In this document: positions 21,960 to 31,626 of the stretch, piece by piece
How positions within the stretch are numbered: position 1 is the first letter of the stretch
How the letters are laid out: every line of letters begins with the position of its first letter
Assembly (NCBI GenBank): GCA_031296915.1
Contig: JAVDPC010000004.1
Span: 208,929 to 272,928, forward strand
DNA length: 64,000 nt
Direction: 5' to 3'
From: Cerasicoccus frondis
Lineage (GTDB): Bacteria > Verrucomicrobiota > Verrucomicrobiia > Opitutales > Cerasicoccaceae
Program-made: the position numbers and the translations under genes
Notes under the pieces: generated by a model
Seen by the model: the letters and a program-made list of their open reading frames with translations, nothing else
Database searches by the model: none
Told to the model about the DNA's origin: nothing

Positions 21960-22056
21960 AAAGGTGGAGCCCGGTGTCCCTACCGGGCTTGTTCCATCCT
22001 AAAGGTTTTCCCGAGAGGCAATAGCAAGCCCGGTAGGGACACCGGGCTCCACCTTT
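21960..22056. repeat. inverted pair of REP-like units
   Basis: Two 32-base arms (21960-21991 and 22025-22056) are near-perfect reverse complements. Each contains the core GCCCGGTGTCCCTACCGGG and the outer GGTGGA/TCCACC. Each arm can form its own hairpin or the whole can form one long cruciform with a 33-nt loop. A third unit is at 20304-20380. Confidence 0.75.
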
Positions 22057-22058
22057 TC

Positions 22059-22296
22059 AACAAACCCACCAGTGTTTTCTGTCAAAACCCACTGGGGCAA
22101 ACTGCCAGAATCCACAGGGGCAAACTGACAAAACCCACTGGTGTTTTCTGCTGAAATGCCCCAGTGTTTTGCGACACAACCAACCAGTGTTTTCCAACAC
22201 AAAACACCTAAGGGTTCCGACACAACCAACCAGTGGGTTGCGACAGAAAACACCAGTGGATTTTCACGAAAAACACAGGTGGCTTTTCGCTGATCG
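22059..22296. repeat. degenerate 23-bp tandem repeat array (about 10 units)
   Basis: About ten consecutive units, most of exactly 23 bp, each starting near CA(C/G/A)AA and carrying an imperfect dyad around CCAGTG or CACTGG. Examples are ACAACCAACCAGTG then TTTTCCAAC, ACAACCAACCAGTG then GGTTGCGAC, and AAAACCCACTGG then TGTTTTCTG. There is no conserved unit/variable spacer alternation, so it is not CRISPR. The period is not a multiple of three, which argues against coding. It ends at the 272-bp inverted-repeat element. Confidence 0.75.
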
Positions 22297-22307
22297 CTGA
22301 GGGTTGT

Positions 22308-22579
22308 TAGAGCACTTTTCATCTAGATTGGCCGATCAGGCCGCAGTGATTTTTCGTGTTCAGCAAGGCGGCTTGAGCGTCGCAGGCTGGAAGCCTGTGA
22401 GCGAAAAGCCAACAACGCTGGCGCGGAAAAGCACTCGGTTTTGGGCTTGGGGACAGATTGGAAGTTCGCGGCGTTGGCATTTCAATCACGGGCTTACAGC
22501 CCGCTCAATCAAAGCCGCCTTGCGCTGCATCCAATCTATACCCCACCTGAATCGGCCAATCTAGATGAAAAGTGCTCTA
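22308..22579. mobile_element. 272-bp MITE-like element with 29-bp perfect terminal inverted repeats
   Basis: The left end TAGAGCACTTTTCATCTAGA(TTGGCCGAT) at 22308-22336 is the exact reverse complement of 22551-22579. There is no ORF inside. The interior holds two inverted copies of a ~60-nt hairpin module (GCAAGGCGGCTTGA ... AAAGCCAAC), whose apical stems are CAGGC-TGGAA-GCCTG and CGGGC-TGTAA-GCCCG. It lies 24 bp beyond the stop of the last BMC operon gene. The left 72 bases recur at 63929-64000 with one mismatch, again at the 3' end of a sugar-catabolism gene. It could be a non-autonomous transposon or a structured 3'-end element. Confidence 0.8.
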
Positions 22580-22603
22580 GATGTAATCCAACCCCATACT
22601 CGC

Positions 22604-23545
22604 TTACGCCTCACTGGCCAATGTGCGTAAATCCCTCTGCACGCGGCGGGCGGCTTGGCGTAGCGCGGCTTCTTCCTTCGGCCAGAGTTTTACATCGATC
22701 ACCGCGCCAGCTCCTCGCCGACCCACTTTCGTCGGCAGCGCCAGGCAAGTCTTGCGCAGGCCATAGCGCGGCGTGCGGAAATCGTGGCACAGACTCACCG
22801 GCAAAACTTGTTGCGTGTCGTGGACAATCGCCGTGGCGACTTCGGCCACCGCAGCGGCGTTGGCCCGGTAGGCGCCCCCCTTGCCCATCGCGATCGCGGT
22901 GTCAGCCGTGCGCGCGCGTTGTTCCACGGCGTGCTGCCAATTGTGCTCCCAGGGCTTGAGTGCGCTGATCGATTCACCTGCAACTTTTGCGCCGGACCAC
23001 AAGGGAACCATCCCCTCGCCTCGCACGCCAATCGCGTTAATCGAGACCTGCTCCAAACTCACTGACAACGCCTGCGATAAACCAACGCGTAAACGCCGCG
23101 CATCGACGACCGTGCCCATACCAATGACGCGCTCTGGCGGCAGCCCTAGATAACTGACCGCCATCGCGGTTAAGAGCTCCGCCGGCTCGGCCGCAATCAG
23201 GATTACGGCGTCCTGCTTCACCCCTGCCTGCTTGAGCTGCCCCAGTTGCCAGCAGAAATGGCGCAGGTAGCGGCGCGCAAGATCGATGCGCGGCTCCTTA
23301 CTTTGCGATGCAAAGCCTCCTGCGAAAACAATCAAATCACTTTGCGATGCAAAGTTAATTTGCGTTGCTGAGTGAATAACAACGTTTCCTTCCAAGAACG
23401 ACTCCCGCAAGTCTTGTATCTCCGCTTCGGCCAGCTGGCCTTGTGCATCGAGCAACGTGAGTTCGCGAAAGAGACCGCGCTCTAAAAAGGCCGCGACCAC
23501 GGCGCTTCCGAGTAACCCGGCTCCACCGATGACCGCGGCTTTCAT
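22604..23545 (-). CDS. lactate/malate dehydrogenase-family protein of the BMC operon
   Basis: A 313-aa Rossmann-fold protein, last gene of the BMC operon. It has the NAD loop VIGGAGLLGSAV (5-16), the active-loop Arg in KEPRIDL and the GMGTVVDARRLR helix (Asp and Arg retained), all at the usual LDH/MDH places. The catalytic-His motif normally written G(E/G)HGD reads GVRGEGMVPL (173-182), so the proton-relay His is Arg175. In PVM-type BMCs such a protein is assumed to recycle NAD with lactate or pyruvate. Loss of the His makes a standard LDH reaction doubtful. No encapsulation-peptide helix is obvious. Confidence 0.82.
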   Translation of the reverse strand: MKAAVIGGAGLLGSAVVAAFLERGLFRELTLLDAQGQLAEAEIQDLRESFLEGNVVIHSATQINFASQSDLIVFAGGFASQSKEPRIDLARRYLRHFCWQLGQLKQAGVKQDAVILIAAEPAELLTAMAVSYLGLPPERVIGMGTVVDARRLRVGLSQALSVSLEQVSINAIGVRGEGMVPLWSGAKVAGESISALKPWEHNWQHAVEQRARTADTAIAMGKGGAYRANAAAVAEVATAIVHDTQQVLPVSLCHDFRTPRYGLRKTCLALPTKVGRRGAGAVIDVKLWPKEEAALRQAARRVQRDLRTLASEA

Positions 23546-23563
23546 CTGAAGGAAGTGATTAAA

Positions 23564-23585
23564 GGAAAAGGAAAAGTCCTTTTCC
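23564..23585. repeat. short hairpin in the aldolase/LDH-like spacer
   Basis: GGAAAAGGA-AAAG-TCCTTTTCC: a perfect 9-bp stem with a 4-nt loop in the 45-bp spacer. It is the first of a series of spacer-specific simple repeats in this operon. Confidence 0.65.
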
Positions 23586-23590
23586 CCGAT

Positions 23591-24664
23591 CTAGCCGTTC
23601 AGTTGTTGTAAAATCATGTCGGTCACCTTTTGCACCAGCGCTTCGGCGTCGTCACCGGAGGGCTTGGCGGCAGGGGCCGACGGCATCGAGCAGACCACAC
23701 CGGGGCGGAACTCGGAGTTGTCGCAAAGCTCGCACTCCTTCATGTCCTCGCGGCGGTCCGGCATACCCAACTGGCGACGAATCGCGATCAGCTCCTTCAG
23801 CTTGTTGCCGCCGTAGGTGTTGAGCCCGTGACCGAGCTGCGAAGCGATGTAAATGGTGTTACAGTAGGCCTCAGTGTTTTCCATCTTCCAGTAGGCGTCT
23901 TCGACGTCCTTGCCCCAGGTGATAACACCGTGGTTTTGCATGATGATGGACTGGTGCTGCGGGGCCAGCTCGCCAACGGCCTTGGCGTTCTCGGGCGTGC
24001 CCGGCGTCTCGTAGCGGGCCAGCGCGATCTCGCCCAAGAACACTTCGGGCTCAGGGATGAGGCAGGTGGGAGGCGCGACGCCGGCAATCGCAAACGCGGT
24101 TGCGTGAATCGGGTGCGCGTGCACGCAGCTCTTGGCATCGGACGTAGCCTTCATGATCGCCAGGTGCGTGTTAACCTCCGACGTGCGCTTGCGCGAACCG
24201 GCGACCTGGTTGCCATCAAGGTCGACCATGCAAATGTCTTCCACGTCGACAAAGCCCTTGGAGATCAAAGTCGGCGTGCAGAGCACGAGGTTGTCCCCCA
24301 CGCGGACGGTGATGTTGCCGCCGTTGCCATCGCAGTAATTCTTCGCCCAGATGCGGCGGCCCATGTCGCAGATGCGCTCTTTGATCACGCGCAGTTCCGG
24401 CGAGTTGAAGTAAGCTTGGATCGCCTCGTAGCCCACGGGATCGGCGCCGGGCTTCCACTTAAATTCGTAGTCCGGCACGACGGGCTCGACCTTCGACGCG
24501 GGTGCTGCGCTCGGTGCGCGCCCCTTGGCCTTGCCGCTCTTTTTGGCTTCGCGGATGGCGTCCTTGGCGGAGGGGGTCAGGACGGCGTTGTCGGGGATGG
24601 CGCACAGGCCTTTGCCGCTGGCCAGCAGCGCTTCAACGTCTTTACCGGTGAATACTTTTTTCAT
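23591..24664 (-). CDS. class II aldolase (fuculose/rhamnulose-1-phosphate aldolase), BMC-targeted
   Basis: Splits L-fuculose- or L-rhamnulose-1-phosphate into DHAP and L-lactaldehyde. The 357-aa protein is longer than FucA (~215). A ~95-residue N-terminal extension contains a helix (KDVEALLASG). The zinc class II aldolase core follows, with GNGGNITVR (~114), SEVNTHLAIM (catalytic Glu), VHAHPIHAT (zinc His pair) and MQNHGVITWG (third His). A linker with CELC and a further Cys leads to a C-terminal amphipathic helix (DDAEALVQKVTDMILQQL), which looks like an encapsulation peptide. It starts 3 bp after the preceding BMC-P gene. Confidence 0.9.
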   Translation of the reverse strand: MKKVFTGKDVEALLASGKGLCAIPDNAVLTPSAKDAIREAKKSGKAKGRAPSAAPASKVEPVVPDYEFKWKPGADPVGYEAIQAYFNSPELRVIKERICDMGRRIWAKNYCDGNGGNITVRVGDNLVLCTPTLISKGFVDVEDICMVDLDGNQVAGSRKRTSEVNTHLAIMKATSDAKSCVHAHPIHATAFAIAGVAPPTCLIPEPEVFLGEIALARYETPGTPENAKAVGELAPQHQSIIMQNHGVITWGKDVEDAYWKMENTEAYCNTIYIASQLGHGLNTYGGNKLKELIAIRRQLGMPDRREDMKECELCDNSEFRPGVVCSMPSAPAAKPSGDDAEALVQKVTDMILQQLNG

Positions 24665-24667
24665 GAT

Positions 24668-24973
24668 TTAAAGAGTGTGGGTCGAGCCCTGGTAAGTGAT
24701 TTCATCGATCAACGCGCAGTTAAACGCATCGACCGGTGTCGGTTGGTCAAAGGTTGCGGAAGCCTCCCCCCCTTCGACAAAGCCAATGACGTCGCCGAGA
24801 CCGCCGCCCATGTTGTCATAGACAACCACGTCGGGCTGGCCGGAAACCGGCGGCAGCTCATCGCCGCGAATGCGCGCCTTGTCCATCGGGCTGACCAACA
24901 GGAAGCGGCCGGCCTTGTAGGACGGATCGCTGTCACTGAGGGTTACTTTGCCGATAACTTTGCCGAAGCGCAT
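24668..24973 (-). CDS. BMC-P pentameric shell vertex protein (EutN/CcmL family), copy 1
   Basis: A 101-aa single-domain EutN/CcmL protein that caps the 12 vertices of the icosahedral shell. The strand MRFGKVIGKVTLS, the core KAGRFLLVSPMD and the glycine turn GGGLGDVIGFVEGG are diagnostic. It is one of three divergent BMC-P paralogues in the operon, as expected for PVM-type compartments. It is tightly coupled to the aldolase gene (3-bp gap). Confidence 0.92.
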   Translation of the reverse strand: MRFGKVIGKVTLSDSDPSYKAGRFLLVSPMDKARIRGDELPPVSGQPDVVVYDNMGGGLGDVIGFVEGGEASATFDQPTPVDAFNCALIDEITYQGSTHTL

Positions 24974-24979
24974 TTGGGT

Positions 24980-25035
24980 GAAAGTTCGAAGGTTTGAAAG
25001 TTTGGAGGTTGGGAGGTTGGGAGGTTCGAAAAGTT
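24980..25035. repeat. tandem 8-mers in BMC-P/BMC-P spacer
   Basis: Six exact 8-base steps (GAAAGTTC, GAAGGTTT, GAAAGTTT, GGAGGTTG, GGAGGTTG, GGAGGTTC) followed by GAAAAGTTT fill nearly the whole 62-bp spacer. The consensus is GRARGTTN on the plus strand, NAACYTYC in the mRNA. Similar octamers occur in the spacers at 26893 and 27700. Confidence 0.75.
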
Positions 25036-25293
25036 TTAATCGTCTTCGATGGCGAGGATCATGTTGCGAATCGGCGTCTTATCGATGCCGAGGAATTCGC
25101 GCACGCCCTTGCCGTCGGTGGTGATGACAATCTTCGAGCCAACGCCCGCGCCTTGCGGATCGATCGCCATCACGGGCTGGCCGACTTCGTTATCCGCCTC
25201 GTCGATCGGCTGGCAAATGAGCAAACGCCAACCGCGCATGGTCTCATGACACATGGTGCTGACGACGTTGCCATCTACTCGGGCGCGGATCAT
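25036..25293 (-). CDS. BMC-P pentameric shell vertex protein, copy 2
   Basis: An 85-aa EutN/CcmL-family protein, the shortest of the three. MIRARVDGNVVSTMCHETMR is the first strand pair, GWRLLICQPID the core, and GAGVGSKIVITTDG the conserved Gly turn and strand. It ends in the acidic tail ILAIEDD. It forms a pentamer at shell vertices. Confidence 0.9.
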   Translation of the reverse strand: MIRARVDGNVVSTMCHETMRGWRLLICQPIDEADNEVGQPVMAIDPQGAGVGSKIVITTDGKGVREFLGIDKTPIRNMILAIEDD

Positions 25294-25303
25294 TGGGAGG
25301 AAA

Positions 25304-25403
25304 GGTGTGGAAGTTTTGAAGTGTTGATGTGTGGAGGTTATATCGTGGCTTTGAGTTTGGCAGGAACTTCAACACGTCCCCACTTCAACACCTCTACACT
25401 TTG
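25304..25403. repeat. long imperfect hairpin in ALDH/BMC-P spacer
   Basis: The left arm (GTGTGGAAGTTTTGAAGTG onward) and right arm (AACTTCAACACGTCCCCACT onward) pair over about 35 positions, with around 27 identities and most mismatches G/A or C/T (wobble-compatible). Each arm is itself built from GTGTTGAAG-like repeats. It fills most of the 114-bp spacer. Confidence 0.6.
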
Positions 25404-25407
25404 AAAT

Positions 25408-26880
25408 TTAATACATCTGGAGAGAGTCCACCAAGACGCAGCGGCGGCGGCGGGTAAAGGTGTCGGGCGTCGTGATGCCTTCGCCGGTTGTCGTGGCGAT
25501 GGAGAAGCTGGAGTAGCCCTCGCCGCCGATCCCGAGGCCCGCTGTGCAGGCGCCGTTTTTCACAAACAATGTGGTGTCGAGCGCGCGGGCCATCTTGCCC
25601 ATACTGGTCACGTCGGTGGAGTGGATCATCGCCGAGTGCTTATAGCCGTGCTCGGACTCGACGGCCATTTCGATCGCGTGGTCGATGTCGCGGGCACGGA
25701 TGACAGGCACCATCGGCATCATCTGCTCCTCAACGACAAAGAGGTGATCGGCGTCGGTTTCTGCAAAAAGCATTTCCGTGCCAGCGGGCGCGGACGTGCC
25801 GGCGATTTGCGCAAGCTTGGTCGCATCGGCGCCAACGAGGTCGCGGTTCACGACAGGGTGCGAGCAGCCGCCGCCATCACCCTTGAAGGTGAAGGCAACC
25901 TTGGTCAGGCGATCCAGCTGCGCGGTGTCGAGCTGGAAGGCGCCAGCCTTCTTCAGCGCAGCAATGAACTGGCCGTAAACTTTCTCGACGACGAAGATTT
26001 GCTTCTCGCCGATGCAGAGCAGGTTGTTGTCGAAGGCGGCGCCAAAAATGATATCGCTCGCGGCCTTGTCGAGGTCGGCGGATTCGTCGATAACGACAGG
26101 CGGATTGCCCGGGCCCGCGCAGATCGCGCGCTTACCGCTCTTCATCGCGGCGTTGACCACACCAGGGCCACCGGTCACGCAAAGCAGGTTTACATCGGGC
26201 GATGCACAAAGCTCGTTAAAGCTGTCGAGCGTTGGCTTCTCGATAATGGTCGCAATGTTCTCAATGCCGATCTCGGCTTTGATGCGCTTATTGAATTCGC
26301 GGACTGCCACCGCCGCGCACTTCGCGCCGCCGGGGTGCGCATTGAAGACAACCGTGTTCCCCGCAGCCACCATGCTAACGATGTTGCAAGACAAAGTCGG
26401 GATGGAGTGCGTGACAGGCGTGATCGCGCCGATGACGCCGAAGGGCGTATTCTCTTCCATCGTGATGCCATGGTCACCGCTCATGCCGCGCGGCGCGAGC
26501 CACTCAACGCCGGGCAAATTCGGGATGCCTTCGAGCTTGGCAATCTTGTGCTCCAGGCGGCCAATCTTGGTTTCGGCAAACTCCAGCTCTCCCCACTCGA
26601 CGGCCTTCTCGGCGCACGTGTCCTTAATGATCTTAACGACCTTCGCGCGGCCTTCGATGCCGAGCTTGCGCAGCTTCTTCTGGGCTTCGCGGGCAGCGGC
26701 GGCGGCGTCACTAGCCGTGGTAAAAACGCCGAGGTCACCATTGGCGCAAGCGCCGTTGCAAGAGCAACCACAGTCATCCTTTTTCGATTCAGTCGGCGCA
26801 GCGGCGCCTTGCTCCTGTAGCTTGCGCAGCACATCGGCCACGACGCTCTTCAGGGCGGATTCATCGATTTGCAAACTCAT
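25408..26880 (-). CDS. CoA-acylating aldehyde dehydrogenase of the BMC (EutE/PduP-like)
   Basis: Oxidises lactaldehyde (or propionaldehyde) to the acyl-CoA with NAD. 490 aa. An N-terminal amphipathic helix (DESALKSVVADVLRKLQEQG, ~6-25) is a typical encapsulation peptide. A linker with four Cys (C37, C39, C41, C45: DCGCSCNGAC) follows, then the ALDH fold with the catalytic Cys in NNLLCIGEKQ (~residue 289) and the nucleotide-binding region before it. The C-terminus FTRRRRCVLVDSLQMY is typical of PduP/EutE. It lies centrally in the operon, flanked by BMC-P genes. The Cys-rich linker is not a usual feature that I know of. Confidence 0.93.
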   Translation of the reverse strand: MSLQIDESALKSVVADVLRKLQEQGAAAPTESKKDDCGCSCNGACANGDLGVFTTASDAAAAAREAQKKLRKLGIEGRAKVVKIIKDTCAEKAVEWGELEFAETKIGRLEHKIAKLEGIPNLPGVEWLAPRGMSGDHGITMEENTPFGVIGAITPVTHSIPTLSCNIVSMVAAGNTVVFNAHPGGAKCAAVAVREFNKRIKAEIGIENIATIIEKPTLDSFNELCASPDVNLLCVTGGPGVVNAAMKSGKRAICAGPGNPPVVIDESADLDKAASDIIFGAAFDNNLLCIGEKQIFVVEKVYGQFIAALKKAGAFQLDTAQLDRLTKVAFTFKGDGGGCSHPVVNRDLVGADATKLAQIAGTSAPAGTEMLFAETDADHLFVVEEQMMPMVPVIRARDIDHAIEMAVESEHGYKHSAMIHSTDVTSMGKMARALDTTLFVKNGACTAGLGIGGEGYSSFSIATTTGEGITTPDTFTRRRRCVLVDSLQMY

Positions 26881-26892
26881 GGGGATTTATAA

Positions 26893-26932
26893 AAGGTTCG
26901 AAAAGTGCGAAGGTTGGGAAGTTCGAAAAGTT
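26893..26932. repeat. octamer-type repeats in BMC-P/ALDH spacer
   Basis: Units AGGTTCGAAAAGTGCGAAGG and TTGGGAAGTTCGAAAAGTT repeat the GAARGTTCG theme of the spacers at 24980 and 27700. After them, GCAGAGTTA occurs twice 18 bp apart (26948 and 26966). No strong stem is seen here. Confidence 0.55.
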
Positions 26933-26971
26933 AAGTTGCTTTGTGTTGCAGAGTTACTTTCCGACGCAGAG

Positions 26972-27280
26972 TTATTTGGCCTTGTAGGTTTGCGTGCCGA
27001 GGACATCGACCGTGTCGACGATACCGACGACGGCGCAGTCCACCGGCAGCGGCTTCATACCCTCGGTTGCGCGGGCGGAGCTGCCCTGCACGAAGAGCAC
27101 CATCTCGCCCTTGCCCGCGCCCAGCCCATCCACGGCGACTACCGTATTGGAGCCGTCGCGGAACTTGGTCGGGTCTTCCGGATCGACCAATTGCGGACGC
27201 AGCAGGAGCAGCTTACGCCCCTTCATTTTGTCGTCCTTCTTGGTCGCCACGACGTGGCCGATGACTTTCGCGAGAAACAT
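26972..27280 (-). CDS. BMC-P pentameric shell vertex protein, copy 3
   Basis: A 102-aa EutN/CcmL-family protein: MFLAKVIGHVVATKKDDKMK, core GRKLLLLRPQLVD, Gly turn VDGLGAGKGEMVLFVQGSS, and the late strand VVGIVDTVDV. It is more basic at the N-terminal loop than the other two copies, so the paralogues may occupy different shells or vertices. Confidence 0.92.
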   Translation of the reverse strand: MFLAKVIGHVVATKKDDKMKGRKLLLLRPQLVDPEDPTKFRDGSNTVVAVDGLGAGKGEMVLFVQGSSARATEGMKPLPVDCAVVGIVDTVDVLGTQTYKAK

Positions 27281-27284
27281 AGGG

Positions 27285-27381
27285 AAATTAAAGTGAGCAA
27301 ATTAAAAATTAAAGTTGGAGGCAGTCTTCGGAGGGTGCCCGCGATTGGGAGCAACCCTCTTTAATTTGCTCACTTTAATTT
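27285..27381. repeat. 22-bp perfect inverted repeat in BMC-H/BMC-P spacer
   Basis: AAATTAAAGTGAGCAAATTA(AA) at 27285-27306 is exactly complementary to 27360-27381. A GC-richer loop of 53 nt separates the arms, and the heptamer-like ATTAAAA repeats around both arms extend the similarity. It occupies nearly the whole spacer and would form a very stable mRNA hairpin between two shell genes. Confidence 0.85.
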
Positions 27382-27393
27382 TTAATCTCCAAT

Positions 27394-27690
27394 TTACTTC
27401 TTTGCCTTGGCTGGGGCCGAAGGGAGGACCTTGGCGATTTCGTCTGCCGGGCGGGCGATGACGTGGGCGCTGACCACTTCGCCGAAGGAAGCGGCGGATT
27501 CGGCGCCAGCGTCGAGGGCTGCCTTTACGGCGGCGACGTCGCCAACGATGGTTGCGCTAACGAGGGCGCTGCCGACGCTCTTCATCGGGCCGACGAGCTC
27601 GACGTTGGCGGCCTTGAGCATGGCGTCAACGCCTTGCACGAGCGAGATAAGTCCCTTGGTTTCGAGGAGTCCGATTGCTTGAGATGCCAT
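27394..27690 (-). CDS. BMC-H hexameric shell protein, copy 1
   Basis: A 98-aa single BMC-domain protein starting at ATG 27690 (MASQAIGLLETKGL). The frame is open further upstream, but that part overlaps ackA in another frame and is not coding. The pore segment reads KSVGSALVS (Gly-Ser-Ala at the central pore), followed by the conserved VGDVAAVKAALDAGAESA helix and the VIARP turn. A Lys-rich tail of about 10 residues (APAKAKK) is distinctive. It forms hexagonal facets of the shell. Confidence 0.93.
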   Translation of the reverse strand: MASQAIGLLETKGLISLVQGVDAMLKAANVELVGPMKSVGSALVSATIVGDVAAVKAALDAGAESAASFGEVVSAHVIARPADEIAKVLPSAPAKAKK

Positions 27691-27699
27691 TATATTTAT

Positions 27700-27760
27700 T
27701 GGTTTGAAGGTTGGAAATGTTCGAAGGTTCGAAAGTTGATTGTTCGAAGGTGGAAAGTTA
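27700..27760. repeat. octamer repeats in ackA/BMC-H spacer
   Basis: A run of GAAGGTTG, GAAATGTTC, GAAGGTTC, GAAAGTTG, then TTGTTCGAAGGTGGAAAGTT in the 82-bp spacer. It is the same GAARGTTC theme as the spacers at 24980 and 26893, suggesting one repeat family has expanded in several spacers. Confidence 0.65.
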
Positions 27761-27772
27761 GGTGGTGTTTTT

Positions 27773-28957
27773 TTAAACGGGTTGCGCGGCGAGGAAGCGG
27801 GAAACTTCGCGCGCGATGACCAACTCTTCGTTGGCCGGGATGACGTAGGCTTTGACGCGGGAATTGGCTGCGCTGATTTCGCCTTCGTCGCGGGTGGCGG
27901 CGTTGGCCGCGGGGTCGAGGGTGAGTCCGAATTCTTCGAGGCCGGCGCAGACTGCGGCGCGGAGAGCGGCATTGTTTTCGCCAATGCCGCCGGTAAAGCA
28001 AATCGCATCAAAGCCGCCCATCTTAAAGACGAAGGAGCCGGCCCAGTGGCGAATGCTATCAACGAGGTGGTCGATGGCGAGTTGCGCGCGTTCGTTGCCG
28101 CCTTCGGCTGCTTCGAGCACATCGCGCAGGTCGTTGCTGACTCCGGAAATGCCGAGCAGGCCGCCTTCCTTGGTGAGCTGTCGTTCGCACTCCTCAACGC
28201 TCAGGCCCTGCGTCTTCATCATGTAGGGCACGGCCATGGAATCGAGGTCGCCGACGCGATTGTTTTGCGGCAAGCCGCTCTGCGGAGAGAAGCCCATCGA
28301 TGCGCCAATCGCCACGCCGTTCTTGATGCCCGTTACGGAGCTGCTGCCGCCGAGGTGGCAGGAGATCACGCGCAGCGGTTTGCCGTCGATGGCGGTGTCG
28401 CCCTTTTGGTAAAGCGCTTGCACCTTTGCAGCCACGTCTTCACGGCCGATGAGTTGCGCGGAGCGCTCGGCAATGAACTTATGGCTGGCGCCGTGGAAGC
28501 CATAACGGCGAACCCCGGCATCATGCCAACTTTGCGGCACAGAGTAAATCGACGACGGCTTCGGCACCCACTGATAAAACGCGGTTTCGAAGAGCGCCAC
28601 CCGGATAACGGACGGCATCACCTGCGCAAACATGCGAATGCCGTTGGCGTAAGCCGGGTTGTGCGCAGGAGCAACTTCCTTGAAGCCTTCCAGCGCAGCG
28701 AGCACCTGGTCGTCCGCTTCCACACAACCGCTGAGATCCTTGCCGAGCACGGTCTTAAAACCGACAGCGTCGAGATCGCCTTCGCCGGTTAAGTGGCCGT
28801 CCTTTTCGAGCGTCGCCAGGCAATCTTCGATCACTGGCGCAAAGTCTTCGACACGCTCATAACCGCCCTTGGCCAGCAAGCGTTCAGCGCCGCCCTCTAA
28901 TTGATAGAGGCGGTATTTGAACGACGTGGAGCCGAGGTTGGCGACGAGGATTTTCAT
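27773..28957 (-). CDS. ackA: acetate/propionate-kinase family enzyme of the BMC operon
   Basis: Acyl-phosphate + ADP to acid + ATP, the last step of lactaldehyde (or acetaldehyde/propionaldehyde) oxidation. 394 aa with the ASKHA signatures: MKILVANLGSTSFKYRL (the family consensus has Asn-x-Gly-Ser-S/T-S-x-K), the second signature YGFHGASHK (~151), the phosphate motif CHLGGSSS, and GGIGENN near the C-terminus. Its position between shell genes argues for a role linked to the BMC, probably outside the shell. It has no encapsulation peptide. Confidence 0.92.
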   Translation of the reverse strand: MKILVANLGSTSFKYRLYQLEGGAERLLAKGGYERVEDFAPVIEDCLATLEKDGHLTGEGDLDAVGFKTVLGKDLSGCVEADDQVLAALEGFKEVAPAHNPAYANGIRMFAQVMPSVIRVALFETAFYQWVPKPSSIYSVPQSWHDAGVRRYGFHGASHKFIAERSAQLIGREDVAAKVQALYQKGDTAIDGKPLRVISCHLGGSSSVTGIKNGVAIGASMGFSPQSGLPQNNRVGDLDSMAVPYMMKTQGLSVEECERQLTKEGGLLGISGVSNDLRDVLEAAEGGNERAQLAIDHLVDSIRHWAGSFVFKMGGFDAICFTGGIGENNAALRAAVCAGLEEFGLTLDPAANAATRDEGEISAANSRVKAYVIPANEELVIAREVSRFLAAQPV

Positions 28958-28963
28958 TTTAAG

Positions 28964-29073
28964 AAATGATGAATTCAGAATTATGAATTATGAAATTAGC
29001 ATGCTGACGTGTAGCGGATAACTCTCACGTCTATCCCCTTTCATAATTCAGCATTCATCATTCATCATTCAAA
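28964..29073. repeat. imperfect inverted repeat in BMC-H/ackA spacer
   Basis: The left arm AATGATGAATTCAGAATTAT plus GAATTATGAAA pairs with the right arm (TTTCATAATTCAGCATTCAT plus CATTCATCATT) at about 26 of 31 positions. Both arms consist of GAATTAT/GAATGAT heptamers. It fills the 116-bp spacer. Confidence 0.75.
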
Positions 29074-29352
29074 TTAGCCCATCCAGTTGCCGAGCTTGGC
29101 GAGGTCTTCGTGCGGACGTGGGATGACCTGCACACCGAGCACGTCGCCCACTTGGGAAGCGGCTTCAGCGCCAGCGTCAACGGCAGCCTTAACGGCAGCG
29201 ACGTCGCCCACGAAGAACGCGGTTACGATGCCGGAACCAATTTTGTCCCAGCCGCTCATGGTTACATCCGCCGACTTGAGGGCGGCGTCACAGGCTTCGA
29301 GAAGAGTAATGAAGCCCTTGGTTTCGATCATGCCTACAGCTTGCTTAGCCAT
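29074..29352 (-). CDS. BMC-H hexameric shell protein, copy 2
   Basis: A 92-aa BMC-domain protein (MAKQAVGMIETKGFITLLEA). The pore loop is DKIGSGIVT (canonical Gly-Ser-Gly), followed by FFVGDVAAVKAAVDAGAEAA and VIPRPHEDLAKL with the conserved edge Arg/His/Lys. It is closest to PduA/CcmK-type facets. Only 29 bp separate it from the upstream BMC-H gene, one of the few spacers here without a repeat. Confidence 0.94.
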   Translation of the reverse strand: MAKQAVGMIETKGFITLLEACDAALKSADVTMSGWDKIGSGIVTAFFVGDVAAVKAAVDAGAEAASQVGDVLGVQVIPRPHEDLAKLGNWMG

Positions 29353-29381
29353 TTTGATGTCTTTCTTAAGGTGTTAAAAAT

Positions 29382-29651
29382 TTAGAGTGTGAACTGCTTG
29401 AGCAGGTCGCTGTGCGGGCGGGCCATAACGTTGGAGGAGACGAGCTCGCCAACCTTGTCTGCGGCTTCAGCGCCAGCTTCGACGGCTGCCTTTACGCTGC
29501 CGACGTCGCCCTTGCAGAGGACCGTTAAGAAGCCGCCGCCGATGGATACCTGGCGCACGAGCTCGACGTTCGCGGCCTTAACCATCGCGTCGCTGGCTTC
29601 GACGCTGCCCACGTAACCGCGGGTTTCTACCATTCCGAGTGATTCGCTCAT
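29382..29651 (-). CDS. BMC-H hexameric shell protein, copy 3
   Basis: An 89-aa BMC-domain protein (MSESLGMVETRGYVGSVEAS). Its pore segment is VSIGGGFLTVLCKGDV (Gly-Gly-Gly with a nearby Cys), clearly different from copies 1 and 2, so the facets may have different permeability or a metal or redox site. The conserved SVKAAVEAGAEAAD helix and ARPHSDLLKQ edge are present. Confidence 0.94.
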   Translation of the reverse strand: MSESLGMVETRGYVGSVEASDAMVKAANVELVRQVSIGGGFLTVLCKGDVGSVKAAVEAGAEAADKVGELVSSNVMARPHSDLLKQFTL

Positions 29652-29662
29652 GATTTATTTAT

Positions 29663-29762
29663 GGGTTTGTAAGGTGTGTAGGGTGTGTAAGGTTTGTAGG
29701 GTGAGTAAAGTGGCCTTGGTTTTCGCATTATGCACATTTCCAACATTACTCACGTTACTCAC
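29663..29762. repeat. tandem 9-mers with partly complementary arm in pduL/BMC-H spacer
   Basis: Five exact 9-base steps (GGGTTTGTA, AGGTGTGTA, GGGTGTGTA, AGGTTTGTA, GGGTGAGTA) at 29663-29707. TACTCACGT and TACTCACTA at 29747-29764 form the complementary arm (7 of 9 positions with the last step). It fills the 110-bp spacer. Confidence 0.7.
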
Positions 29763-30430
29763 TATTTGATCAGTTCGACGTGGCTTTCGGGGGTGAGGCC
29801 GCAGGCGTTGCCTTCGTCGGTGTCGATGTGGACCTCGAGTTTAAAGTCGGGCTTCACGCGGACAAAGATTCGGTCAAAGGTCACGCCAAGTTCGCCGCCC
29901 ACGCGCATCTTCATGTAGTCGCCCTGCTTGACGCCGTAATGTGCGGCGTCGTCCGGGTGCATGTGCACGTGGGGCGCGGCGCGGATGACGCCTTCGTCCA
30001 GTTCGAGAAAGCCAGCGGGGCCCATCAGCATACAGCCGGGTGTGCCCTTGATGTCGCCGGATTGGCGAACAGGAATCTTGTAGCCCATCGCAATCGAGTC
30101 CGTGTAAGCGAGCTCGACTTGGTTCAAGTCGCGGCACGGGCCGAGGATGCGGAGGTTCGAAATAACGCGGCTGCGCGGGCCGACCATGGTCACGGATTCT
30201 TCCGCAGCGTATTGGCCCTCTTGGTAAAGCCACTTCATGGGCTTCAGCTCGTGGCCCTTGCCGAAAAGAATCTCCACCGCTTCCGGCGTCAGGTGGCAGT
30301 GACGGGCGCTGACGTTAACCACCAGCGGATTCGGGCCCGAAGACGGCGCAGCCATGCCGAGTTGCGAATAGACACTCTCGCGGACCAGTTTTTCGATTTG
30401 GGAACGGGAAATAGCGGGATTGGCGCTCAC
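29762..30430 (-). CDS. pduL: phosphate acyltransferase PduL
   Basis: Converts acyl-CoA + Pi to acyl-phosphate + CoA, recycling CoA inside the BMC. 222 aa. The N-terminal helix SRSQIEKLVRESVYSQLG (~9-26) is a typical encapsulation peptide. Two PduL beta-barrel domains follow, with zinc-ligand motifs NVSARHCHLTPE (His-x-His) and APHVHMHPDDAAHYGV. It is the first gene of the BMC operon, downstream of a terminator at 30534-30557, so the operon promoter should be in 30431-30530. Confidence 0.94.
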   Translation of the reverse strand: MSANPAISRSQIEKLVRESVYSQLGMAAPSSGPNPLVVNVSARHCHLTPEAVEILFGKGHELKPMKWLYQEGQYAAEESVTMVGPRSRVISNLRILGPCRDLNQVELAYTDSIAMGYKIPVRQSGDIKGTPGCMLMGPAGFLELDEGVIRAAPHVHMHPDDAAHYGVKQGDYMKMRVGGELGVTFDRIFVRVKPDFKLEVHIDTDEGNACGLTPESHVELIK

Positions 30431-30530
30431 TTAATTCGGGGTTTAAATTGGAGGTTTTGAAAAAGTATGACCAAAATCTTCCAAAATCTTCCAAATCGTC
30501 AAGCAAAAAGTTTCATCCGTTCGTCTCAGC
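30431..30530 (-). promoter_or_regulatory. probable BMC operon promoter region with 10-bp direct repeats
   Basis: This 100-bp gap lies between a terminator for the upstream gene and pduL. On the plus strand CCAAAATCTT occurs twice in tandem (30471-30490), followed by CCAAATC. The 10-bp period equals one helix turn, as in protein-binding arrays. On the minus strand a TTGACG (-35-like) precedes these repeats, but the hexamer 17 bp downstream is a poor -10. TTGGAAGA, the core of the repeat read on the other strand, also occurs upstream of the DeoR gene (61646-61653). Operator function is an inference. Confidence 0.35.
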
Positions 30531-30533
30531 AAC

Positions 30534-30557
30534 AAAAAAAGCGCCGCAAAACGACGC
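30534..30557 (-). terminator. intrinsic terminator of the gene at 30583
   Basis: On the minus strand GCGTCG-TTTT-GCGGCGC forms a short GC stem (one T-G pair) followed by seven T residues. It separates the gene at 30583-31089 from the BMC operon. Confidence 0.6.
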
Positions 30558-30582
30558 CAATCGCTCATTCGCTAGAGCAGCT

Positions 30583-31089
30583 TTAAAACACCAATGCGTT
30601 CAGCTCTTCCTGAATGCGCACGAGCGCCATCGGATCGGGATCGCTGGATTGCACGGCGTATTCCTGCTTGGAGCGGACATGCAGGTAGGTTTGCACGCCA
30701 TTCTCCGGACGGCCCTTGGAGCGCAGGATGCGCTTACGCTCCAGAAGCAAGGCCAGCACTTGCTTAAACAGCTCGCGGTCCTCCGCAACCTCTGCGCCAT
30801 CGGCCTCAAACATCGACAGAAACAGCTCTTCGCTCGTGGCCAAGGCATGGGCGCGGGCTTCCTTTTCTTCTTCGCCGCGCGGCTTCACCTCCCGGCCCCA
30901 TCGACCGAGCACGGCCTCTGGACGCGGGAAGTCATCTACTTTGGCGGCAGCGACATCGGCGCGCTGGAGTTGGCCCTCTTCGTCGCGGTAGAGAAAGCAG
31001 ACGACTTCATCGCCGATCTCAAAAGCTTCTCCGGATACGGCGCATTCGCGCGCGAGAGGTTTAATCTGCCAATCCATGACGCTGAGCAT
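30583..31089 (-). CDS. conserved hypothetical protein (starts with MDWQIKP-type domain)
   Basis: 168 aa from ATG 31089 (an AGAAGGGG ribosome-binding-site-like stretch lies 13 bp upstream); a second ATG four codons on is also possible. The opening WQIKPLARECAVSGEAFEIG then GDEVVC suggests a small beta domain with two Cys/Gly turns, followed by a charged helical C-terminal half (EEEKEARAHALATSEELFLS). I recall similar short proteins in Verrucomicrobia and Planctomycetes but cannot assign a function. It sits just upstream of the BMC operon with its own terminator. Confidence 0.6.
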   Translation of the reverse strand: MLSVMDWQIKPLARECAVSGEAFEIGDEVVCFLYRDEEGQLQRADVAAAKVDDFPRPEAVLGRWGREVKPRGEEEKEARAHALATSEELFLSMFEADGAEVAEDRELFKQVLALLLERKRILRSKGRPENGVQTYLHVRSKQEYAVQSSDPDPMALVRIQEELNALVF

Positions 31090-31159
31090 TTTTTCGATTA
31101 AGCCCCTTCTCTCGCAAGGTAAATGTGCGGCTTCCAGCATTTTATAGTCGAGCCAAGCG

Positions 31160-31626
31160 ACTGGTCGCCCATAAATATTTTTCCAAGCGCTCTCTATTAT
31201 TCACCTGACCAGTTACGCATACCCGAACCAGGAGCAGCGTATTCGCAAAGTGAAAACCGCCATGGCCGTCCTAAGTCGCCATCTGGAACCACCCCAAGCC
31301 AAAACGTTGAAAACCAGCATCGGCAGCGGCCACATGAGCGCCTACTTCGGTGAGCAATTTGCCTCTCTGGACAGCTAGGATGCGATCGATAAACGGCAAG
31401 AGTCCGAGGACTACCCAATCGATTCCACCAATTGAAGGCGCTGCTACAGCAGCACACGACTGAGATTTTGGATACGCGCCATCTATTGTGAAGCATCCCA
31501 GCTGATTATCAATATTCGGACAAGCCCGGGCCGTTGAAGCTGGTTAACTGGTTGCCCATGCCAATTCTCAAAAAGCTCACGCATATGATGCCTTCATTCT
31601 TCGTCATGGCTCGTAAACCAGCCTAG
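31160..31626 (+). pseudogene. decayed gene remnants
   Basis: No intact gene lies between 31090 and 31730. Two protein-like but broken stretches are visible. One (31190-31378) reads SIIHLTSYAYPNQEQRIRKV and continues to GEQFASLDS before TAG, with no start codon in frame that looks real. Another (about 31390-31626, other frame) reads RGLPNRFHQLKALLQQ, is cut by TGA after DTRHLL, then continues SDKPGPLKLVNWLPMPILKK to FFVMARKPA and TAG. The latter looks like the C-terminal tail of an enzyme, perhaps a methyltransferase (weak guess). These are probably relics. Confidence 0.35.

Follow-up and report, generated by a model that had tools for sequence, protein, structure and literature searches.

Spacer repeats in a microcompartment operon of Cerasicoccus frondis as apparent copies of dispersed hairpin elements paired with S23 genes

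The spacers of a bacterial microcompartment (BMC) operon in Cerasicoccus frondis carry short tandem words and hairpins. The operon lies in a window of 64,000 nucleotides (nt), which is part of a 5.8-Mb genome (G000). Several described systems come close. Repetitive extragenic palindromic (REP) doublets forming hairpins (REPINs) are reported as dispersed hairpin repeat pairs, each family being tied to one single-copy gene, a REP-associated tyrosine transposase (RAYT), with its own adjoining repeats (PMC3116915). Intervening sequences (IVS) of 23S rRNA are described as having terminal inverted repeats that form a stem cut by RNase III, a loop in which an S23p gene can lie and a scattered occurrence; S23 itself is presented there as a protein without known function (PMC4990558). 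For the short tandemly repeated repetitive sequences (STRR) of cyanobacteria, hairpins between hupS and hupL are reported and a role in stability or translation coupling is proposed, the function of the repeats being given as unknown (PMC2670836). Dispersed intergenic words are also listed for the hyp operon of Nostoc (PMC2408588). Protective intercistronic stem-loops are reported to stop 3'-5' decay (PMC5927463). The genome-wide system in Cerasicoccus resembles REPIN/RAYT and IVS and fits neither definition fully. The BMC spacer repeats appear to be in good part local copies of dispersed hairpin inserts, not home-made.

The operon is encoded on the minus strand, in the order PduL, BMC-H3, BMC-H2, AckA, BMC-H1, EutN-c, an aldehyde dehydrogenase (ALDH), EutN-b, EutN-a, a class II aldolase and an MDH-like gene. 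It looks like a fucose/rhamnose microcompartment of the PV type; fucose/rhamnose-type microcompartments are reported from Planctomycetes and Verrucomicrobia (PMC8857213). The ten spacers from PduL to the MDH-like gene are, in transcription order, 110, 29, 116, 82, 113, 91, 114, 62, 3 and 45 nt long. They are named after the downstream gene; that is, the AckA spacer is BMC-H2>AckA and the mdh spacer is aldolase>MDH-like gene. Word families are numbered F1 to F3, and S23 loci are lettered.

23591..30430, minus strand: host operon from PduL to the class II aldolase, identified by Pfam, with BMC-H3 and ALDH by PF00936 scan or homology; the gene order is kept in relatives.
29652..29761, minus strand: PduL>BMC-H3 spacer; words of S23 locus W (L353), with a G-free word arm close to the ATG (29663-29701) and a weak 5' arm (29741-29759).
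29353..29381, minus strand: BMC-H3>BMC-H2 spacer; short, without words or structure, and likewise unstructured in other family genomes.
28958..29073, minus strand: BMC-H2>AckA spacer; a spacer-filling hairpin of family F1 (GAATTATGAATGATGAA / TTCATAATTCATCATT type) with a 5' arm at about 29038-29070 and a 3' arm at 28964-28995; words of S23 locus Y (L219).
27691..27772, minus strand: AckA>BMC-H1 spacer; unpaired G-poor words of family F3 (CTTTCGAACCTTCGAAC), without an S23 match in the own genome.
27281..27393, minus strand: BMC-H1>EutN-c spacer; a hairpin of family F2 with perfect 22-bp arms (27285-27307, 27360-27381); words of S23 locus X (L223).
26881..26971, minus strand: EutN-c>ALDH spacer; F3-type words near the ATG and a weak stem.
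25294..25407, minus strand: ALDH>EutN-b spacer; an imperfect hairpin with a 5' arm at 25365-25400 and a 3' arm at 25302-25338; words of S23 locus Z (L354).
24974..25035, minus strand: EutN-b>EutN-a spacer; tandem G-poor F3-like words without a stem and with a weak S23 match (p 0.04).
23546..23590, minus strand: aldolase>MDH-like gene spacer; an 11-bp hairpin that begins 3 nt past the stop, without an S23 match.

At the mRNA level, two forms can be told apart: stems taking up almost the whole spacer (AckA, EutN-c, EutN-b, mdh) and, just 5' of the ATG, G-poor words that are unpaired (EutN-a, ALDH, BMC-H1). The BMC-H3 spacer has G-poor words 5' of the ATG plus a weak stem. A stable stem near the upstream stop is present in the AckA, EutN-c and mdh spacers and weaker in the EutN-b spacer.

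Repeated 6-mers were above chance in all eight spacers of at least 45 nt (500 dinucleotide shuffles; p 0.002-0.006). The fold energy was -40.1 versus -20.5 in shuffles for the AckA spacer and -38.9 versus -20.0 for the EutN-c spacer (both p 0.002), and the mdh spacer also beat its shuffles (p 0.006). The excess was weaker for EutN-b (p 0.014), BMC-H1 (p 0.012) and ALDH (p 0.026). The folds of the BMC-H3 and EutN-a spacers did not go beyond the 500 dinucleotide shuffles (both p 0.086); thus, not all repeat spacers are hairpins. A strict repeat cut was passed by seven of nine co-directional BMC operon spacers (40-400 nt, including one 5' of PduL) versus 12 of the 214 other co-directional ones in 853 kb of the same genome sampled without selection (Fisher p 3e-7). 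The first-pass annotation had seen repeats in eight of the ten spacers, those of at least 45 nt, and none in the 3- and 29-nt ones. Re-reading of the spacers and the 6-mer excess agree with this, and its perfect 22-bp inverted repeat at 27285/27360 is exact. The folding beyond shuffles that it proposed to check is clear for AckA, EutN-c and mdh, weak for EutN-b, BMC-H1 and ALDH, and absent for BMC-H3 and EutN-a. The equal repeat density in other intergenic regions that it had considered as a counter-argument was not found in the sample; the same word families do occur elsewhere. An Rfam scan of 22000-31500 returned nothing above the gathering score and one match far below it (E 0.99), which was judged to be chance. 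Intrinsic terminators were considered and dropped: judged by eye alone, the BMC stems are not followed by a T-run, and they lie mid-operon.

Copies of the words are dispersed over the genome. Pattern searches gave 32 matches for F1, 39 for F2 and 32 for F3, often two or more within one element; backwards-read controls gave 0, 0 and 3. For a 22-nt F2 arm, the genome contains 11 exact copies, two of which lie in the BMC operon. Clusters were assigned to sites in sampled stretches of the own genome, 20 of which were picked for containing words; some long gaps in them are genes overlooked by the gene caller. Of the F1 clusters, 13 are in co-directional spacers, one in a convergent spacer and one at an unresolved site. 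F2 and F3 have 10 co-directional clusters each, seven (F2) and five (F3) convergent or divergent ones, and one each within a called gene. Host spacers identified by Pfam lie between the genes for L23 and L2, S3 and L16, L24 and L5, and S14 and S8, and between rpoB and rpoC, gyrB and gyrA, and metK and ahcY. A BMC-specific device was dropped as a candidate, since the same word families, or others of like build, occur in housekeeping operons. By eye, loops differ though arms agree, and the unit lengths are about 7 nt in F1, 8 nt in F3 and 9 nt in the arms around GxxExxY genes. The AckA spacer and its S23 locus share some bases beyond the arm. As the sequences show, at least four BMC spacers contain non-coding copies of dispersed elements, which are composed of a 5' word arm, a variable loop and a 3' word arm and lie mainly in co-directional spacers. 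Codon adaptation of the upstream gene was 0.67 at word spacers versus 0.52 elsewhere (p 0.0015, 18 vs 199). After removal of ribosomal and BMC genes, the contrast had p 0.056 for upstream and p 0.010 for downstream genes (11 vs 187). The values are suggestive of an association between word spacers and high expression.

F2 arms and F1 arms of the own genome also bracket genes, both of PF05635 (S23, "23S rRNA intervening sequence protein"). Inverted word arms flank 20 of 26 S23 genes (z>4), at medians of 35 nt before the start and 15 nt after the stop. The 26 genes were our choice from a longer list: eight of nine in the own genome, five of six in the sister genome (G001), six of eight in a relative (G003) and one each in seven others. 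L356, counted among the six misses, does have both arms, the 3' arm being inside the called gene end. Ordinary open reading frames of similar size had arms in 3 of 182 cases, and in 2 of 67 within co-directional runs; both times, the top hit was a GxxExxY gene (L039). This family (PF13366), for which we know of no function, is bracketed as well. In the family genomes G008 and G009, the spacer between metK and ahcY has word arms with a GxxExxY gene in the loop. Inverted flank arms were found for 17 of 23 GxxExxY genes picked by motif, at median distances of 3 nt from the start and 6 nt from the stop. The motif left out 11 of 30 fetched loci; six of these 11 have arms, and one of the 11 is disrupted by a premature stop. 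S23 was matched in 24 and PF13366 in 28 of the 49 genomes searched. The own genome has nine and six matches, respectively; S23 genes are multi-copy there. Four S23 loci examined for context have co-directional protein genes on both sides. Loci X, Y, Z, V and U are shared between species and have conserved outer flanks, and W is conserved on one side. The arms differ between species at X, Y and W. The S23 protein is under purifying selection; the ratio of nonsynonymous to synonymous substitution rates (dN/dS) was 0.02-0.11 in four of nine pairs, and dS was saturated in the other five.

Words of the BMC spacers pair with individual S23 loci. In the own genome, the BMC-H3 spacer pairs with locus W, AckA with Y, EutN-c with X and EutN-b with Z (four of the eight spacers of at least 40 nt). 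Paired spacers scored 25-31, the runner-up locus 12-17 and shuffles about 11-12. In all four, both arms match both arms of the distant S23 locus. Seven of eight spacers are paired in G001 (AckA with Y, six others with W, mdh with none), and the AckA>BMC-H1 slot of this genome matches locus W (L356). Three of eight are paired in G003 (AckA with Y; EutN-c and EutN-b with X) and two of six in a further relative, G002 (EutN-c and EutN-b with X). Locus W of G001 carries arms of TTCGAAC words, which are of the F3 type, so the unpaired F3 words of the own genome may be the former words of this locus. A wider test used word spacers selected without regard to S23: 18 of 28 matched S23 arms of their own genome and none matched foreign arms, versus 12 and 3 of 287 other spacers. 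This comparison covered co-directional spacers of up to 260 nt in three genomes, the word spacers having strict repeats (two longer ones excluded); a score of at least 18 counted as a match, and six S23 genes of six other genera served as foreign. F1 words are common where locus Y has F1 arms, with 32 matches in G000, 19 in G003 and 7 in G001. The word of locus Y in G001 has 24 matches in G001, 8 in G003 and 5 in G000.

Like REPINs, the elements are inverted repeat doublets with a spacer, form hairpins and are dispersed between genes. The words of F1, F2, locus Z and locus W each match the flanks of one gene of the own genome; those of F3 do not, but do so in G001. Unlike in REPIN/RAYT, the partner in Cerasicoccus is S23 or GxxExxY and not a Y1 tyrosine transposase, the partner gene lies inside the hairpin loop, and the arms are tandem, fast-changing words of 7-9 nt. 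Like 23S rRNA IVS, terminal inverted repeats enclose a loop with an S23 gene (20 of 26). Unlike IVS, the elements occupy spacers of protein operons, are present in many copies per genome and have short-word arms. Stem-loops by stop codons in unidirectional spacers, with likely protection of the upstream mRNA, are shared with REP elements and protective hairpins as these are described (PMC3733652, PMC5927463). Unlike REP elements, words of the Cerasicoccus type differ between species at the same site.

Hairpins of word repeats within operons and dispersal are shared with STRR, whose units are of about 7 nt, as in F1, against 8 nt in F3 and 9 nt in the GxxExxY arms. STRR belong to another phylum and have other words, and the S23 link finds no mention in the available text of the two STRR papers (PMC2670836, PMC2408588). 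The first-pass annotation had considered the likeness to cyanobacterial heptamers to be only one of style. It is more than that: inverted word arms (z above 4) were found in the flanks of 7 of 13 S23 genes on cyanobacterial plasmids, which we chose among 26 records; two of the seven have them more than 150 nt upstream. In Nostoc edaphicum, TAGGGAG words surround an S23 gene that lies between two ribonucleotide reductase genes. A paper from 1995 is said, by its title, to deal with variable but structured intergenic regions in cyanobacteria. A literature search for S23 and repeats returned no paper on their link among the matches listed (titles and abstract beginnings). The name GxxExxY was found in two papers. 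On three cyanobacterial plasmids, S23 genes lie in CRISPR clusters, two in a cas6/cas4 interval and one in a type III-B cas10/cmr3 interval (L373, L380, L383).

Probably, S23-linked dispersed hairpin elements occupy these spacers and have a role in RNA as intercistronic stem-loops. Dispersal, architecture, S23 pairing and position pattern are shown by comparison of the sequences. The match of the repeat ends to the arms around S23 genes is a hint of an element able to spread by itself and to lodge in intergenic spacers. We infer that S23 loci supply the words and that the stems act in RNA. The S23 locus would be the source or keeper of the words, its gene being enclosed by arms with these words. 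The short hairpins would be dispersed, non-autonomous copies of the S23 locus, as REPINs are to RAYT genes. GxxExxY is a second small gene family bracketed like S23. Over 86 hairpins, the median distance is 3.5 nt from stop to stem and 13 nt from stem to start. A stem with this placement, from about 3 nt past the stop to about 13 nt short of the next start, would be expected to work as a stem-loop between cistrons. Once transcribed, it may separate or couple the neighbouring messages. It may block 3'-5' decay into the upstream message, may be cut by a double-strand RNase like the stems of 23S rRNA IVS, or both, and it may hide or couple the next start. Selection in the BMC operon seems to maintain the stems after BMC-H2 and BMC-H1 and to leave the leaders of shell genes open.

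The same sites were compared in a family set of 10 genomes and beyond. The rpoB/rpoC and L23/L2 spacers have F1 words in G000 and other words in G001, and measure 15-24 nt in G002 and G003. The gyrB/gyrA spacer is structured in all 10 family genomes with about six word sets by eye, that of G002 not beyond shuffles (z -1.2). In G007, this spacer (L299) has a loop with a 91-aa open frame without a Pfam match between arms of the CACAGAGGCACGGAG type. In the BMC operon, every one of the 10 family genomes has a fold energy of -21.9 to -62.4 kcal/mol at BMC-H1>EutN-c, and nine of 10 have one of -15.9 to -49.6 kcal/mol at BMC-H2>AckA, with differing words. AckA>BMC-H1 and BMC-H3>BMC-H2 are open in all 10 (-3.7 or weaker). 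Not all of these fold energies beat shuffles. A strict hairpin test, requiring 10 bp or more and a z below -2.5, was passed in 8 of 10 family genomes at BMC-H1>EutN-c, 7 of 10 at BMC-H2>AckA, 1 of 10 at PduL>BMC-H3 and none of 10 at AckA>BMC-H1 and at BMC-H3>BMC-H2. Raw counts outside the family were 19 of 74 for BMC-H2>AckA and 13 of 80 for BMC-H1>EutN-c, versus 2 of 69, 1 of 71 and 2 of 77 before BMC-H3, BMC-H2 and BMC-H1. Within 72 loci, a hairpin at BMC-H2>AckA and not at AckA>BMC-H1 was found in 18, the reverse in one. This slot pattern favours some selection, which seems to keep the BMC-H2 and BMC-H1 stems and the open leaders of shell genes.

The first-pass annotation had proposed to compare relatives for fast change with kept pairing: words change and BMC-H1>EutN-c folds in all 10, though not every fold beats its shuffles. 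Its interpretation is partly supported. The repeats may have an RNA-level role among the shell, vertex and enzyme genes, hairpins being found often after BMC-H2 and BMC-H1 and rarely before shell genes, in the family and outside it; the elements are dispersed ones and not a device for BMC ratios. Outside the family, the stems at BMC slots come from quite different palindromes. Unrelated palindromes occupy the BMC-H2>AckA or BMC-H1>EutN-c slot in distant Verrucomicrobiota (L150, L152, L161, L171, L179, L210); some are of types known as dispersed repeats.

The 30 nt 5' of shell genes contain a median of 0-1.5 G in the family and 1.5-2 outside, with a genome value of 5. Upstream of AckA and EutN-c, the values are 7.5 and 6 outside the family, and also low (1.5 and 2.5) within it. 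G was depleted near starts in a whole-genome sample. Shine-Dalgarno 4-mers precede 9.1% of 396 ATG starts versus 10.1% in a control stretch, and 5-mers 3.5% versus 1.5%. With so little Shine-Dalgarno signal, a stem that covers the start could couple translation. EutN-b and EutN-c have a local fold around the start (-30..+30) whose stability is below the genome median. Codon-adaptation percentiles are 93-98 for BMC-H genes, 90 for PduL and the aldolase and 85-88 for AckA, EutN-b and EutN-c.

Several observations weigh against the S23-linked, RNA-level interpretation. The BMC-H1, ALDH (both F3 words) and mdh spacers have no S23 partner in the own genome, and EutN-a has a weak one (p 0.04). Six of the 26 S23 genes are without arms at the cut-off, including L353, the partner assigned to the BMC-H3 spacer (z 3.3, with words to be seen in both flanks); L352, one of the 20 positives, aligned a coding stretch instead of visible words. 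The S23 loci look static, and no movement of an element was observed. The co-directional bias of strict repeats is mild (30 of 472 co-directional, 6 of 88 convergent and 2 of 103 divergent spacers over five genomes). A G-rich 5' arm is no distinguishing mark, being found in 14 of 16 word elements and in 263 of 353 other structured spacers; arm order was dropped as a special signature, as the majority order is the same in other structured spacers. Hairpins occur at other BMC slots too, that is, at EutN-c>ALDH in 3 of 10 family and 5 of 77 outside genomes, and the 8:2 ratio of BMC-H1>EutN-c to EutN-c>ALDH outside the family is not significant (p 0.11). The outside-family counts are raw with respect to kinship and include at least one duplicate genome (G029 = L142). 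Finally, the products of gyrB/gyrA, rpoB/rpoC and ribosomal protein genes are needed in equal amounts; host operons of this equimolar kind argue against a plain role in stoichiometry.

Selfish repeats could be tolerated in transcribed spacers as neutral passengers without an operon function, and the BMC pattern would then mark the sites of least harm, away from the front of highly translated shell genes. This is a possibility to be taken seriously, though we do not expect it to hold. It fits the rpoB/rpoC and L23/L2 spacers, filled in G000 and G001 and near-empty in G002 and G003, the free exchange of words and the same elements in unrelated operons. It does not predict that BMC-H1>EutN-c remains at -21.9 kcal/mol or lower in all 10 family genomes despite sequence change (8 by the strict test), that the gyrB/gyrA spacer is structured in all 10 (G002 not beyond shuffles), or that unrelated palindromes occupy BMC-H2>AckA and BMC-H1>EutN-c in some of the distant Verrucomicrobia.

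Translational coupling, in which the stem masks the next start until the ribosome finishing the upstream gene opens it, appears rather unlikely. The stop-to-start geometry of the stems and the scarce use of Shine-Dalgarno motifs agree with it, it suits equimolar operons, and it is among the proposals reported for the cyanobacterial repeats (PMC2670836). EutN-a and BMC-H1 have words and no real stem, and the less stable start-region folds of EutN-b and EutN-c argue against it. A further reading, close to that of the first-pass annotation, is likewise doubtful: that the hairpins are under selection to adjust the ratios of shell, vertex and enzyme products by differential decay, as at malEFG or puf. 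Stems do follow the BMC-H genes, whose codon adaptation exceeds that of AckA, EutN-b and EutN-c, and protective intercistronic hairpins are a reported principle (PMC5927463). Elements of like build lie between equal-amount partners, which favours coupling or neutrality over ratio setting. Independent slippage with palindrome correction in each spacer, without dispersal, would explain tandem words that differ between spacers, but is very improbable in view of the 11 exact genome matches of the F2 arm, which strongly disfavour it, and of the four spacers that match both arms of distant S23 loci.

The predicted S23 fold of locus X (pLDDT 96.9) matches the S23 structures 2gsc and 2rld and, more weakly, Avd of diversity-generating retroelements, here of a phage (PDB 4dwl, 8ubb, 8ube; TM 0.78-0.86, E 0.003-0.016). 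The identity to Avd is 15-18%. A PDB sequence search returned 2gsc and 2rld for S23 and no match for GxxExxY. With an Avd-like predicted fold, binding of nucleic acid by S23 is plausible and an RNA route of spread is thinkable. A tentative wider proposal, more speculative than the reading of the spacers, is that four-helix-bundle S23 and nuclease-like GxxExxY proteins are partners of widespread self-dispersing intercistronic hairpins in Verrucomicrobiota and Cyanobacteria. S23 pentamers, as kin of Avd, might bind their own arms as RNA or DNA and copy them to other transcribed spacers, possibly via RNA, and hosts might use the stems. A link between S23, GxxExxY and short tandem repeats would give all of them a testable role, the protein recognising its own arms. 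If true, each repeat family could be traced to a gene, and the link would explain the fast change of spacer sequence with a kept stem in conserved operons.

Some spacers of the sampled stretches are unusual. A recent local duplication apparently gave rise to the pair of almost identical F2 hairpins at L215:9420-9816 (G000:C5:64419-64815), which are some 250 nt apart. In a 260-nt convergent spacer near 11105 of L113, a long GC-rich inverted repeat adjoins an F2 arm. Repeats of other kinds (CAACATAGCATCGGTTGTT type; AAAATCCACCAGTGTTT type), which do not resemble the word hairpins, form arrays in spacers at L099:6023-6301 and L040:4542-4876 in the own genome and at L089:10733-11038 in G003.

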